From: Frateuria defendens
GTDB taxonomy: Bacteria > Pseudomonadota > Gammaproteobacteria > Xanthomonadales > Rhodanobacteraceae
Direction: 5' to 3'
Assembly (NCBI RefSeq): GCF_001182895.1
Contig: NZ_LFQR01000048.1
Span: forward strand, 1 to 64,000
DNA: 64,000 bases
A program made the position numbers and the translations under genes. Within the stretch, counting starts at the first letter, position 1; the number at the start of each line of letters is the position of its first letter. Positions 48,418-57,165 of this stretch are shown piece after piece. The notes beneath the pieces were generated by a model. That model worked only from the letters and a program-made list of their open reading frames with translations, did not search any database and was not told where the DNA came from.

Positions 48418-51027
48418 ATGAAGAAACGTCCGACTTTTTCGCAGTTGTCGGCGGCGGTGCTGCTGGCGCTGTCGCAGTGGGCCGTCGCGGGGAGCGCGCT
48501 GGCGGATGACAAGGCCGACGTGGCGGCCGACCCGAAGAAGACCAGCAACATGCAGACGGTGACGGTGACCACCGGCACGCACTCGAGCGAGCGCACCGCC
48601 AGCACCTCGCTGGCACCGGTGGACGTGCTCTCCGCCGAGGCGCTCAAGAGCACCGGTGCCACCGACGTGGCCACCGCGCTGTCGCGCCTGGAGCCGTCGC
48701 TGAACTTCCCGCTCTACGCGGGCTCGGACGCCTCCGGCTCGCAGCGCCCGATGTCCATGCGCGGCCTGTCGCCGGACCTGGTGCTGGTGCTGGTGGACGG
48801 CAAGCGCTACCACACCCCTTCCTACATCAACACCAGCGGCCAGGGCTACGGCACCGCGCCGGTGGACTTCCAGACCCTGCCGCTGTCGGCGGTGGACCAC
48901 ATCGAGGTGCTGCGCGACGGCGCCGCCGCGCTGTACGGCTCCGACGCCATCGCCGGCGTGGTCAACGTGGTGCTGAAGAAGGGCGCCAAGGGCGGCGCGC
49001 TCGACTTCACCGGCGGCCAGTACAGCGCCGGCGACGGCCGCAAGTACCTCGGTTCGGCCAACTTCGGCCTGCCGCTGGGCGACAAGGGCTGGGTGCGCTT
49101 CGACGCCGAGAAGGGCTACGACGGCCGCATCAGCCGCAGCCAGCCGAACATCTTCGCGCCCGAGATCGGCTCGCCGGGCCAGGGCAGCACGCCGAGCGTG
49201 CAGCACAAGAGCTTCAACCTCAACGGCAGCTACAACATCACCTCGAACCTCGAACTGTACTTCATGGCGGTGAACACCTGGCGCGACAGCGTGGCCAAGA
49301 TGAACTACCGCTACCCCTACCTGCGCTACCGGGACTACAGCAGCAGGCAGATCGGCTCCCCGGCCAACGGCTACGTGGGCTACCCGGAGTGGGCGCTGTA
49401 CCCGCAGGGCTACAACCCGGCGCTGGAGAACAAGACCCAGGACAACGAACTGGTGCTCGGCCTGCGCGGCGAGATCGGCGACGGCTGGCGCTGGGACGTG
49501 GGCGCCAACTATGGCCGCAACAAGCTCTCCATGTACACCGTGGGCAGCATCAACCGCGCCTACTACCAGGACTTCGGCACCAACCCCAACGGCGGCGACT
49601 TCTACGACGGCACCTTCCGCAACAAGCAGCAGGTGCTGACGGCCGACATCACCAAGGACTTCAGCCTCTCCTGGCTGCCCAACTCGGTGACGTTGGCCTT
49701 CGGCGCCCAGTACCTGCGCGAGACCTATAGCCTGGATGCGGGCGACGTGGCCTCCTACTACGCCACCACCACCCGCGGCACCGCGCCCAACTCGGGCGTG
49801 CCACAGGCCGGCGCCCAGGGCTACTCGGGCTACAGCCCGCAGTCGGCCGGTGACTGGGGCCGCCACAGCGTGGCCGGCTACGTGAGCCTGGAGACCAACC
49901 TCACCGACAAGCTGGGCGTATCGCTGGCCGGCCGCCACGAGAAGTACTCCGACTTCGGACGCACCACCAACGGCGCGCTGTCGCTGCGCTACGACTTCAC
50001 CGACAACTTCGCGCTGCGCGGGTCGGTGTCCTCGGGCTTCAAGGCGCCGTCGCTGGCGCAGTCCTACTACTCGGTGGTGGTGTCCACCAGCTACACGGTG
50101 GAGCAGGGCGTGCCGGTGGCCGGCCTCTACAACGGCGGCATCTTCCCGGTCACCAACGCGCTGGCGCAGACCCTGGGCGCGCGGCCGCTCAAGCCCGAGA
50201 AGTCGAACAACTACTCCCTCGGCATGGTGTGGAGCCCGATCGACAACCTCAACCTGACCCTGGACGTGTACCAGATCGACATCAGCGACCGCATCACGCT
50301 ATCCGGCTCGATCCCCACGGTGTCGGCGAGCTACCCGGGCTACAGCAGCTACATCCAGAACATCCTGGCCCAGCACGGCGACTACGCCAGCTACGCCTCG
50401 GTGCAGTACATGATGAACGGCTTCGACACCCGCACCCGCGGCGCGGACCTGGTGGCCGACTACGACTACGCCTTCGCCAACGGCGGCAACCTGCGCAGCA
50501 CGCTGAGCTTCAACGTCACCGGCAACAAGGTCACCGGCTACAACTCCATCCCGCCGAGCCTGGCGGCGGTGCAGGCGCAGTTCCCCAACGTGCCCTTGAC
50601 CAGCCGGCTGTATTCGCGTTCCCTTATCAAAGGGGTGTACGAACACGGCGGGCCGAACAGCAAGCTGGTTCTCAACGAGAACTACAGCCAGGGGCCCTGG
50701 TCGTTCAACGCCACGCTGACCCGTTACGGCGCGGTGACCCGCTACGCCGATGCCGGCCACGCGGGCAGGACGACCACGCCGCTGTATCCGAACGGACTCA
50801 ACACCACGTTCGACCAGCGCTATGGCGCGCGCTGGCTGCTGGACCTGGCGGCCACGTACAACCACGACCGCTGGAGCTTCACGCTGGGCGCGGACAACGT
50901 GTTCAACACCTACCCGGAGAAGAACAGCTACTACAACAACCAGACCAACCAGATGCCGTACCCGACCATGTCGCCGTTCGGCTTCTTCGGCGCCTACGTG
51001 TATGGCAAGGTGGGCTACCACTGGTAA
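48418..51027 (+). CDS. TonB-dependent receptor
   Basis: This 869-residue outer-membrane active transporter has a signal peptide (SAAVLLALSQWAVAGSALA), then a possible TonB box near MQTVTVTTG. The plug domain has RPMSMRGLSPDLVLVLVDGKRY and IEVLRDGAAALYGSDAIAGVVNVVLKKG. A 22-strand-type barrel follows, with SSGFKAPSLAQ and LKPEKSNNYSLGMVW. It ends VYGKVGYHW with an aromatic C-terminus. ATG 48418 follows GGGGAGCGAG. Substrate is unknown; its place in front of an amine oxidase, cytochrome c and RidA suggests uptake of the amine-containing compound or peptide they act on. Confidence 0.93.
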   Translation: MKKRPTFSQLSAAVLLALSQWAVAGSALADDKADVAADPKKTSNMQTVTVTTGTHSSERTASTSLAPVDVLSAEALKSTGATDVATALSRLEPSLNFPLYAGSDASGSQRPMSMRGLSPDLVLVLVDGKRYHTPSYINTSGQGYGTAPVDFQTLPLSAVDHIEVLRDGAAALYGSDAIAGVVNVVLKKGAKGGALDFTGGQYSAGDGRKYLGSANFGLPLGDKGWVRFDAEKGYDGRISRSQPNIFAPEIGSPGQGSTPSVQHKSFNLNGSYNITSNLELYFMAVNTWRDSVAKMNYRYPYLRYRDYSSRQIGSPANGYVGYPEWALYPQGYNPALENKTQDNELVLGLRGEIGDGWRWDVGANYGRNKLSMYTVGSINRAYYQDFGTNPNGGDFYDGTFRNKQQVLTADITKDFSLSWLPNSVTLAFGAQYLRETYSLDAGDVASYYATTTRGTAPNSGVPQAGAQGYSGYSPQSAGDWGRHSVAGYVSLETNLTDKLGVSLAGRHEKYSDFGRTTNGALSLRYDFTDNFALRGSVSSGFKAPSLAQSYYSVVVSTSYTVEQGVPVAGLYNGGIFPVTNALAQTLGARPLKPEKSNNYSLGMVWSPIDNLNLTLDVYQIDISDRITLSGSIPTVSASYPGYSSYIQNILAQHGDYASYASVQYMMNGFDTRTRGADLVADYDYAFANGGNLRSTLSFNVTGNKVTGYNSIPPSLAAVQAQFPNVPLTSRLYSRSLIKGVYEHGGPNSKLVLNENYSQGPWSFNATLTRYGAVTRYADAGHAGRTTTPLYPNGLNTTFDQRYGARWLLDLAATYNHDRWSFTLGADNVFNTYPEKNSYYNNQTNQMPYPTMSPFGFFGAYVYGKVGYHW

Positions 51028-51126
51028 GGGGGGCGACAGCAGTATCGTTCCAGCGCAGCCCCGGCCCTGCCGGGGCTGCTTCAACACAAAAAGGGGTTCA
51101 AAAGTGGCACGTTTGAAACGGGGCGC

Positions 51127-52740
51127 ATGTTGATGGGTACGGATGGCTGTCGTTCGATGACGCGCCGCGACCTGCTGAGGATGATCGGCGTCACGGCAGG
51201 CAGCGCGGCGATGTACCAGGCGATGAGCAGCCTGGGTTTTGCGGCGGAATCCACCTTCCGCCAGCCGGCCGGATTGCAGGGCGCGCCCAAGGGCGCCTCG
51301 GTACTGGTCCTCGGCGCCGGCATCGCCGGCATGGTGGCGGCCTACGAGCTGCGCAAGGCCGGCTACAAGGTGCAGGTGCTCGAGTACAACGCCCGCGCCG
51401 GCGGCCGCAACTGGACCATCCACAGCGGCGATACCTATACCGAGCTGGGCGGCTTCACCCAGCACTGCAAGTTCGATCCGGGCCTGTACATCAACCCCGG
51501 TCCGTGGCGGCTCCCCTACCACCACCACGGCATCCTCCATTACTGCAAGGTGCTCGGCGTACCGCTCGAGGCCTTCGTGCAGGTCAACTACAACGCCTAC
51601 GTGCACAGCAGCAAGGCGTTCGGCGGCAAGCCGCAGCGCTTCCGCAACATGCGCGCGGACTACCACGGCCACGTGGCCGAGCTGCTCGCCAAGGCCACCA
51701 ACACCCGCAAGCTCGACCAGCTGGTCGACAAGGAAGACCAGGAGAAGCTGCTCGCCTCGCTGCGCGAGTGGGGCGCGCTCGACAAGAACTACGCCTACGT
51801 GAAGGGCGAGACCAGCAGCAACCGCCGCGGCTACGAGAAGGAGCCGGGCGGCGGCCTCACCGCGCGGCCGGTGACATCCGAGCCGATGTCCTTCAAGGAC
51901 GTGCTCGGCTCGGGCCTGTGGGCGATGCTGCCGGTGGGCGACAACTACGAGATGCAGACCACGCTGTTCCAGCCGGTGGGCGGCATGGGGCAGATCGGCC
52001 AGGCCTTCGCGCGTGAGCTGGGGCCGCTGATCCGCTACAACGCCAAGGTCATCGACATCCACCAGGACGAGAGCGGCGTCACCGCCACCTACGAGGACAC
52101 CACCAAGCCGGGCAGCAAGCTCACCGCCCGCGCCGACTGGTGCGTGAACACCATCCCGCTCTCCATCCTCGGCCAGATCCCGATGAACGTGGGCCAGCCG
52201 ATGGTGGACGCGATCAACGCGGTGCCGTACGCGGCCTCGATCAAGGTCGGCCTGCAGTTCAAGCGCCGCTTCTGGGAAGAGGACGAGCACATCTACGGCG
52301 GCATCAGCTACACCGACCTGCCGATCACCAACATCAGCTACCCGAGCACCGGCTACCACAGCCGCGGCAAGGGCGTGCTGCTGGGCGCCTACATCTGGGG
52401 CCTGGACGCAATGGAGTTCACCGCCATGCCGCCCGAGGAGCGCGTGCAGCGGGCGGTGGAGTACGGCAGCCAGATCCACCCGCAGTACAAGCAGGAGTTC
52501 GACAACGGCGTGGCCATGGCCTGGCACCGCTCGCCCTTCACCCTGGGCTGCTTCGGCCTGTGGTCGGAGGAGGCGCGCGCCAAGCACTACGACAACCTGT
52601 GCGCGGTCGACGGGCGCATCGTGCTCGCCGGCGAGCATGCGTCGTATATTCCTGCCTGGCAGGAGGGTGCGGTGACTTCCGCGCTGGACGCCATCGGCCG
52701 GCTGCACCAGCGCGCGCTCGCGGGAGGGGCCAAGGCATGA
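51127..52740 (+). CDS. Tat-exported flavin amine oxidase/dehydrogenase
   Basis: This 537-residue FAD enzyme is of the monoamine oxidase/L-amino-acid oxidase family. The N-terminus has a twin-arginine signal (TRRDLLRMIG and a hydrophobic Ala/Gly stretch), so it is folded with FAD before export to the periplasm. The dinucleotide motif VLVLGAGIAGMVAAYELRKAGY and the downstream ARAGGRN are classic. The C-terminal FAD motif is IVLAGEHASYIPAWQEGAVTSALDAI. The start is ATG 51127, or 51133. The next gene, a c-type cytochrome, overlaps its stop, which suggests electrons pass to cytochrome c rather than O2, as shown for the related NicA2. The substrate is unknown. Confidence 0.87.
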   Translation: MLMGTDGCRSMTRRDLLRMIGVTAGSAAMYQAMSSLGFAAESTFRQPAGLQGAPKGASVLVLGAGIAGMVAAYELRKAGYKVQVLEYNARAGGRNWTIHSGDTYTELGGFTQHCKFDPGLYINPGPWRLPYHHHGILHYCKVLGVPLEAFVQVNYNAYVHSSKAFGGKPQRFRNMRADYHGHVAELLAKATNTRKLDQLVDKEDQEKLLASLREWGALDKNYAYVKGETSSNRRGYEKEPGGGLTARPVTSEPMSFKDVLGSGLWAMLPVGDNYEMQTTLFQPVGGMGQIGQAFARELGPLIRYNAKVIDIHQDESGVTATYEDTTKPGSKLTARADWCVNTIPLSILGQIPMNVGQPMVDAINAVPYAASIKVGLQFKRRFWEEDEHIYGGISYTDLPITNISYPSTGYHSRGKGVLLGAYIWGLDAMEFTAMPPEERVQRAVEYGSQIHPQYKQEFDNGVAMAWHRSPFTLGCFGLWSEEARAKHYDNLCAVDGRIVLAGEHASYIPAWQEGAVTSALDAIGRLHQRALAGGAKA

Positions 52741-53207
52741 AGACGAACCGTTCACTCGCAGGGCGTGCCGCGCTGGCGCTCGGCCTGGCGTTCGGCCTCG
52801 GCGCGGCCGGGGCGGCGCAGGCGGACAGCGCCGGCATCTACAACGCCTCCACCCTCAAGACCGCCAACGGCGAGCAGATCTACACCCACATCTGCCAGGG
52901 CTGCCACATGCCCGACGGCAAGGGCGCGGTGGGCGCGGGGCGCTACCCCAACTTCGCCGGCAACCCGGCGGTGGTCTCCGCGCCGTACCTGGCGCTCACC
53001 GTGCTGCACGGGCGCCGCGACATGCCCGCCTTCGCCGAGCGCCCGGGTACGGGCGGCAAGGCCTTCGGCATCGTCACGCTGACCGACGAGCAGGTGGCGA
53101 GCGTGGTCAACTACATCCGCTCGCACTTCGGCAACAGCTACACGGACAGCATCAGCACGGCGGACGTCACGGCGGACGTCACGGCGCTGCGCCAGCCGCC
53201 GCACTGA
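52737..53207 (+). CDS. Periplasmic c-type cytochrome
   Basis: This 156-residue class I cytochrome c has a signal peptide (ALALGLAFGLGAAGAAQA), a single haem-binding CQGCH (53-57), and a likely axial Met in RRDMPAF (about 96). NYIRSHFG is the typical C-terminal helix. Its ATG overlaps the stop of the amine oxidase gene (ATGA), the strongest sign of a working pair. It would take electrons from the flavoenzyme and deliver them to the respiratory chain. Confidence 0.9.
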   Translation: MKTNRSLAGRAALALGLAFGLGAAGAAQADSAGIYNASTLKTANGEQIYTHICQGCHMPDGKGAVGAGRYPNFAGNPAVVSAPYLALTVLHGRRDMPAFAERPGTGGKAFGIVTLTDEQVASVVNYIRSHFGNSYTDSISTADVTADVTALRQPPH

Positions 53208-53255
53208 CCGCCGCACCGGCCGGTTTCCACCCCCAACCCACACAAGGAATTTCCC

Positions 53256-53750
53256 ATGCGCAAGCTCGCCTTCCCCGCCCTCTCGCTGCTGATGCTCGCG
53301 CCGCTCGCCGCCGGCGCGGCGGACGTGACCCGCTACAAGATCCCCAACAGCAAGTACCCGATCGCCGCCGCCGTCGAAGTGCCGGCGGGCAAGGCCGTGG
53401 TCTACCTGAGCGGCCAGATGGCCTCCATGCCGAAGGACGCCAAGGGCGCCAACGCCCCGGCCGAGGTGCTCGACACCAAGGCGCAGACCGTCGGCGCGCT
53501 CAACAACATCAAGAAGCAGCTGGAAGCCATGCACCTCACCATGGGTGACGTGGTGAAGATGCAGGTGTTCCTGGTGGCCGACAAGAACAAGGAAGGCAAG
53601 CTCGACTTCGCCGGCTTCATGGAAGGCTACAGCCAGTTCTTCGGCACCAAGGAACAGCCCAACCTGCCGTCGCGCTCGGCCATGCAGGTGGCCGCGCTGG
53701 TGAACCCGTCGGCGCTGGTGGAGATCGAGGTGATGGCGGTTCGTCCGTAA
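53256..53750 (+). CDS. RidA-family protein with signal peptide
   Basis: RidA proteins hydrolyse reactive imines and enamines to ketones and ammonia. The 164 residues have an N-terminal signal (LAFPALSLLMLAPLAAGA), so this one is exported; ordinary RidA is cytoplasmic. The RidA core has VVYLSGQMA, TKAQTVGALNNIKKQL, VKMQVFL and the C-terminal PSRSAMQVAALVNPSALVEIEVMAV, with Arg140 at the position of the catalytic Arg105. It follows the cytochrome gene by 48 bases. Amine oxidation yields an imine, so it may finish the reaction in the periplasm. Confidence 0.87.
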   Translation: MRKLAFPALSLLMLAPLAAGAADVTRYKIPNSKYPIAAAVEVPAGKAVVYLSGQMASMPKDAKGANAPAEVLDTKAQTVGALNNIKKQLEAMHLTMGDVVKMQVFLVADKNKEGKLDFAGFMEGYSQFFGTKEQPNLPSRSAMQVAALVNPSALVEIEVMAVRP

Positions 53751-53806: not shown

Positions 53807-53843
53807 CCCTCTCCCCGCCGGGGAGAGGGTTGGGGTGAGGGGA
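53807..53843. repeat. CCCTCTCCCC inverted repeat, copy 2
   Basis: CCCTCTCCCC and GGGGAGAGGG form a 10-bp stem over GCC, followed by TTGGGGTGAGGGG, a layout common in GC-rich proteobacterial intergenic repeats. Related hairpins occur at 34430, 55456 and 62085. Confidence 0.6.

Positions 53844-55490: not shown

Positions 55491-57165
<1,675 letters not shown>

Follow-up and report, generated by a model that had tools for sequence, protein, structure and literature searches.

A probable periplasmic L-amino-acid:cytochrome c dehydrogenase encoded beside an exported Rid3-like protein in Frateuria defendens

Gene clusters that bring together an L-amino acid oxidase gene, a cytochrome c gene and a gene of the Rid family have been known since 2016, when lao-cccA-ridA was described in Gluconacetobacter diazotrophicus. 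The enzyme of that cluster carries a twin-arginine (Tat) signal and was given a model like that of the Rhodococcus opacus L-amino acid oxidase, the cytochrome and the Rid protein were suggested to be its helpers, and the cluster was reported to be conserved in Xanthomonas and Caulobacter (PMC5053998). NicA2 / Pnao / CycN of Pseudomonas putida S16 likewise combines a Tat flavin enzyme and an operonic Sec-exported cytochrome c with a proposed flow of electrons (PMC9396064, PMC12224317). In 2025 a Tat signal together with an operonic Sec cytochrome was shown by experiment to predict which members of this superfamily are dehydrogenases that use a cytochrome, and the Tat FAOs with operonic cytochrome tested to date react poorly with O2, in a survey that was seeded by NicA2 BLAST hits and that perhaps left the L-amino acid oxidase branch unsampled (PMC12224317). 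The Chlamydomonas system LAO1-LAO2(RidA) also pairs an extracytoplasmic (periplasmic) L-amino acid oxidase with a Rid protein, but it is eukaryotic, produces H2O2 and lacks a cytochrome c (PMC10805672). As for the Rid proteins, RidA and Rid3 genes were reported in 2015 to cluster with those of FAD amine oxidases (PMC4433059). PSPTO_3006 and PFL_1385 are classed as Rid3, whose members hydrolyse the imines that arise from the action of L-amino acid oxidase and D-arginine dehydrogenase; those tested with the former enzyme derive from Leu, Gln, Phe, Met and His (PMC5619798).

Here we examine a four-gene cluster of this type in a stretch of 64,000 nucleotides from Frateuria defendens (hereafter the window). 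The cluster contains the same three genes as G. diazotrophicus PAL5, namely an R. opacus-type lao with a Tat signal and adjacent cytochrome c and RidA genes, and differs in having a TonB receptor gene in addition; the auxin role is one proposed for G. diazotrophicus. Its kinship to GDI2456 rests on the published description (PMC5053998) and on the Xanthomonas loci that we examined, which show the order lao-cytochrome-rid. The type of cluster is thus already known, similar clusters are widespread, and the present one is a good example of them. We add to this how widely and how strictly enzyme and cytochrome are paired, the predicted export of nearly all linked Rid proteins and the conservation of their Arg, and natural variants that test the model. 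The following were all computed in this study: the order of the genes, the families and export signals of their products, the conservation of catalytic residues, and the association of enzyme and cytochrome across Proteobacteria.

Gene order and protein families

The four reading frames are open and co-oriented at 48418-53750 (+), and a profile search assigned them, in order, to the Pfam families TonB plug and barrel, Amino_oxidase, Cytochrom_C and Ribonuc_L-PSP, which confirmed the four adjacent genes described in an earlier note on this DNA. A search against NCBIfam gave no equivalog above its cut-off. The first gene (48418-51027, +) encodes a TonB-dependent outer-membrane receptor of 869 amino acids (Plug 77 bits, TonB barrel 126 bits), and the second (lao, 51127-52740, +) encodes the flavin enzyme. 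The third (52737-53207, +) encodes a secreted monoheme cytochrome c with the motif CQGCH at 52893-52907 and Met96 at 53022-53024, and the fourth (53256-53750, +) a predicted Rid3-like imine deaminase with Arg140 at 53673-53675. The stop codon of lao and the start codon of the cytochrome gene share ATGA at 52737-52740, so that the four-base overlap claimed previously is indeed there. The flanking genes are unrelated to the cluster: upstream lies an APH-family kinase gene on the opposite strand, and downstream a nucleotide-sugar dehydrogenase gene and amtB/glnK.

The flavoenzyme and its cytochrome

The top solved relative of the enzyme was 2jae, the L-amino acid oxidase of R. opacus (295 bits, the second-best match reaching 149 bits), with 37% identity over 471 aligned residues. 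Comparison of folds using the predicted model of the enzyme (mean pLDDT 87) also placed 2jae first (Z 55, rmsd 1.6 over 474 residues), followed by snake L-amino acid oxidases (Z 38) and monoamine oxidases (Z near 34). Residues R128 and Y422 of the enzyme align with R83 and Y370 of 2jae, given here as chain indices, and with the equivalent Arg and Tyr in enzymes of the vertebrate type; in the snake L-amino acid oxidase the carboxylate of the substrate is bound by Arg90 and Tyr372 (numbering and function from PMC6149928). Examination of 36 diverse homologues showed R128, K373, Y422 and W511 to be conserved, with R128 invariant and Y422 conserved in at least 90% of them. By sequence and by predicted fold, the enzyme is assigned to the R. 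opacus L-amino acid oxidase family. Because it has this affiliation and its carboxylate-binding Arg and Tyr are aligned, L-amino acids are its likely class of substrates, instead of an open-ended amine.

These results refine the earlier note, which had proposed an amine oxidase acting on an unknown amine and comparable to NicA2. Membership in the flavin amine oxidase superfamily stood, while the unknown amine gave way to L-amino acids. The parallel with NicA2 holds for a mechanistic analogue of the same superfamily, but not for the nearest relative; a NicA2-like identity of the enzyme is disfavoured, as L-amino acid oxidases are closest to it by both sequence and fold. The cluster also differs from NicA2 / Pnao in adding a Rid partner that is predicted to be exported.

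The substrate could be narrower than this class. Following the proposal made for G. diazotrophicus, the unit would be directed to tryptophan and would supply indole-3-pyruvate for auxin (IAA) and plant signalling, instead of being a general dehydrogenase. Transposon mutants in the lao of the lao-cccA-ridA cluster of G. diazotrophicus lose IAA and its ccm mutants make 5% of it (PMC5053998), and many of the hosts of such clusters are plant-associated (Xanthomonas, Bradyrhizobium, Mesorhizobium). The loss of IAA on added tryptophan does not, however, prove that the enzyme is specific for it, and the R. opacus enzyme has a wide range, accepting 39 of 43 L-amino acids (as cited in PMC5053998). Moreover, the cluster contains no decarboxylase and also occurs in genomes from soil, water and bog in which a plant link is not obvious. 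We therefore regard a tryptophan-directed unit as quite improbable, and retain L-amino acids in general as the likely substrates.

A scan of named genomes yielded 80 loci, in Rhodanobacter, Dyella, Luteibacter, Xanthomonas, Stenotrophomonas, Nevskia, Pseudomonas, Bradyrhizobium, Mesorhizobium, Methylobacterium, Azospirillum and others. In all 80 the next gene on the same strand encodes a homologous cytochrome c, and in 45 of them ATGA is found at the lao stop; as the loci were selected by similarity and are related by descent, these counts do not represent independent events. From Xanthomonadales to Bradyrhizobium, enzyme and cytochrome are essentially inseparable. The earlier note had asked for co-occurrence elsewhere, and besides the constant pair we found Rid as the next gene in 45/80 loci and the complete order of receptor, enzyme, cytochrome and Rid in 6/80 as well as in further Rhodanobacteraceae genomes; with the pair and the full order recurring in this way, the gene order is not a matter of chance.

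The cytochromes are equally uniform, the CxxCH motif and the Met ligand being invariant in 105 of 105, and the nearest solved relatives of the window protein are the heme domains of the cytochrome subunits of fructose and alcohol dehydrogenases. In a tree of the enzymes, every monoheme-linked enzyme falls on one side of a single branch (the outgroup was a long branch and NicA2 was absent, and we used group membership only, ignoring the root). A sister branch (L064, L065 and L069) has a diheme cytochrome c in the slot between lao and Rid, and a third branch (L066 and L070) retains the Tat signal and the exported Rid with no local cytochrome. Since the cytochrome is inseparable from the enzyme, is swapped for a diheme protein in the sister branch, resembles the heme domains that work with periplasmic dehydrogenases and fits the predictor of 2025, we infer that it is the electron acceptor of the enzyme. 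The suggestion of the cytochrome as likely acceptor is in this way supported by the 80 loci and by the sister branch.

The family to which the enzyme belongs nonetheless invites another interpretation. The R. opacus L-amino acid oxidase uses O2, and the snake enzymes do so too. The window protein shares with the R. opacus enzyme its fold, 37% of its residues, the carboxylate Arg and Tyr and the flavin-side Lys, and differs from that O2-using oxidase in its Tat signal and its constant cytochrome neighbour. The flavin-side Lys (K373), typical of oxidases, is kept superfamily-wide and does not discriminate oxidases from dehydrogenases. A periplasmic L-amino acid oxidase could work mainly on O2 and make H2O2, so as to scavenge nitrogen or to hold back competitors, and the cytochrome would then be no more than an electron carrier connected with peroxide or stress. 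Such a function would agree with these relatives, with the periplasmic, H2O2-producing LAO1 of Chlamydomonas and its Rid partner (PMC10805672), and with L066 and L070, where Tat signal and Rid occur without a local cytochrome. It is hard to reconcile, however, with the retention of the cytochrome in 80/80 loci and its diheme replacement in the same slot. The invariant Met ligand is typical of electron carriers and not of peroxidases, and the Tat FAOs with operonic cytochrome tested to date were poor with O2. Taking both sides together, we consider a mainly O2-dependent oxidase unlikely, and the cytochrome remains the preferred acceptor. A search of the literature found no kinetics for members of the branch to which the window enzyme belongs.

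The same genome holds a second lao-cytochrome pair (G000:C18:17320-18927, -; L011:7884-9928), whose enzyme is 73% and cytochrome 53% identical to those of the window. It groups with a Stenotrophomonas copy and not with the window copy, has no Rid gene nearby, and adjoins genes for an alpha/beta-hydrolase (proline iminopeptidase-like) and a LysR regulator.

The Rid protein and the shared compartment

The nearest characterised matches of the window Rid are PSPTO3006 (111 bits) and PFL1385 (94 bits), with which it shares the catalytic Arg. It is on these grounds a predicted Rid3-like imine deaminase, in support of the imine-hydrolysing role first suggested for it. It appears to differ from these two proteins in being predicted to be exported and in lying beside its oxidase. 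All 77 lao-linked Rid proteins have the catalytic Arg, and by a hydropathy test, as opposed to a trained predictor, 75 of the 77 have a signal-like hydrophobic N-terminus, some with lipoprotein-type cysteines. Export thus appears to be the rule for lao-linked Rid proteins, and the earlier view that an exported RidA with an intact Arg140 is unusual does not hold in this setting; an oddity restricted to this genome is ruled out. The Rid gene is found anywhere in the locus in 48/80 cases, and its presence on the enzyme tree requires about 19 changes. Because about 40% of the pairs have no adjacent Rid gene, Rid is helpful and not required. Another Rid paralogue of this genome (L169:1405-1854, G000:C57) has a signal-like N-terminus, carries PPAST in place of P-x-R-S and lacks the catalytic Arg.

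All three soluble proteins of the cluster have an N-terminus suited to export. That of the enzyme is of the Tat type (51127-51246, +; SMTRRDLLRMIG), with the motif TRRDLLRMIG and the twin Arg at residues 13-14 (51163-51168); the genome encodes TatC, and the twin Arg is present in 118 of 119 homologues of the enzyme, with KR in the remaining one. The cytochrome has a Sec-type signal, and the Rid protein a Sec-like one covering residues 1 to about 21, MRKLAFPALSLLMLAPLAAGA/ADV (LAAGA/ADV). By its Tat flavoenzyme and its operonic Sec-exported cytochrome c, the cluster displays the trait of the NicA2/Pnao kind. Two sister genomes provide a natural variant: in L071 and L072, which represent one lineage and count as one evolutionary case, the core of the lao signal is broken by charged residues, the cytochrome is missing and the Rid protein has no signal. 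The system has apparently been relocated to the cytoplasm there, and this joint loss is the outcome that co-localisation predicts. The twin Arg, the Rid signals and this case together support the earlier placement of the enzyme, the cytochrome and Rid in one compartment.

Considering these results as a whole, the best reading of the cluster, and one that we hold to be probable, is a periplasmic L-amino-acid:cytochrome c dehydrogenase accompanied by an exported Rid3 imine deaminase. Tat would export the folded FAD enzyme, which would oxidise an L-amino acid and so yield the imino acid; the monoheme cytochrome c encoded beside the enzyme would re-oxidise the reduced flavin and pass the electrons to the respiratory chain, so that little or no H2O2 would be made. 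In the same compartment the exported Rid3 would hydrolyse the imino acid to the keto acid and ammonium, and the TonB receptor, an optional member, may bring in an amino-acid-containing substrate. In this scheme the electron acceptor, the substrate, the low reactivity with O2 and the role of the receptor are what we infer. Counting against this reading are the use of O2 by the R. opacus relative, the non-discriminating K373, the confinement of the relocation to a single lineage, and the absence of Rid at about 40% of the pairs.

If this reading is true, the annotated "L-amino acid oxidases" of many soil- and plant-associated Proteobacteria would need renaming as dehydrogenases, which would change what is predicted of their H2O2 production, their release of ammonium and their synthesis of auxin. 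For the Rid3 subfamily it would define the partner, the compartment and the class of substrates. The enzyme set is small and soluble, consisting of three proteins.

The receptor and the non-coding elements

A TonB receptor gene lies directly upstream of lao, in the same orientation, in 10/80 named loci. The window receptor is 49-53% identical to receptors of its relatives that are sited elsewhere and about 46% identical to their lao-linked ones, and the closest receptors in other genomes have a conserved neighbourhood away from lao, from which no clue to the substrate was gained. It therefore appears to be the weakest and least certain member of the cluster, an optional add-on and not the usual lao-linked copy. 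The receptor of the module proposed earlier is accordingly found upstream, here and in those ten loci, but a fixed membership is unsupported. One may still ask whether it imports a specific amine- or amino-acid-bearing compound, such as a peptide, a siderophore fragment or an alkaloid, in a dedicated pathway of uptake and oxidation that would be a compatible addition to the dehydrogenase. The 5' position on the same strand in ten loci, the four-gene order in six and its occurrence in several Rhodanobacteraceae genomes speak for it. Most loci, however, have no upstream receptor, the window copy is nearest to receptors located elsewhere, and a hairpin separates the receptor and enzyme genes, so that we view dedicated uptake as a doubtful addition.

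That hairpin is a strong GC-rich one at 51055-51079 (+) in the 99-bp gap between the two genes, without a T run and with a fold z of -1.3 over shuffles. A terminator scan called none at this hairpin, which is possibly an attenuator or partial terminator, and given its presence in the gap a single transcript over all four genes stays putative. A promoter scan gave no sigma-70-like sites and was uninformative. After the cluster, positions 53807-53829 form a palindrome, perfect and rich in GC (CCCTCTCCCC-N-GGGGAGAGGG), which occurs 22 times in the genome and never in the reversed control; we take it for a dispersed REP-like or terminator-like element that likely marks the end of the unit. Farther on, 1.7 kb 3' of the cluster, amtB-glnK (ammonium transporter and PII) occupies 55491-57153 (-) of the window; the cluster would free periplasmic ammonium, and the nearness of the two is perhaps due to chance.
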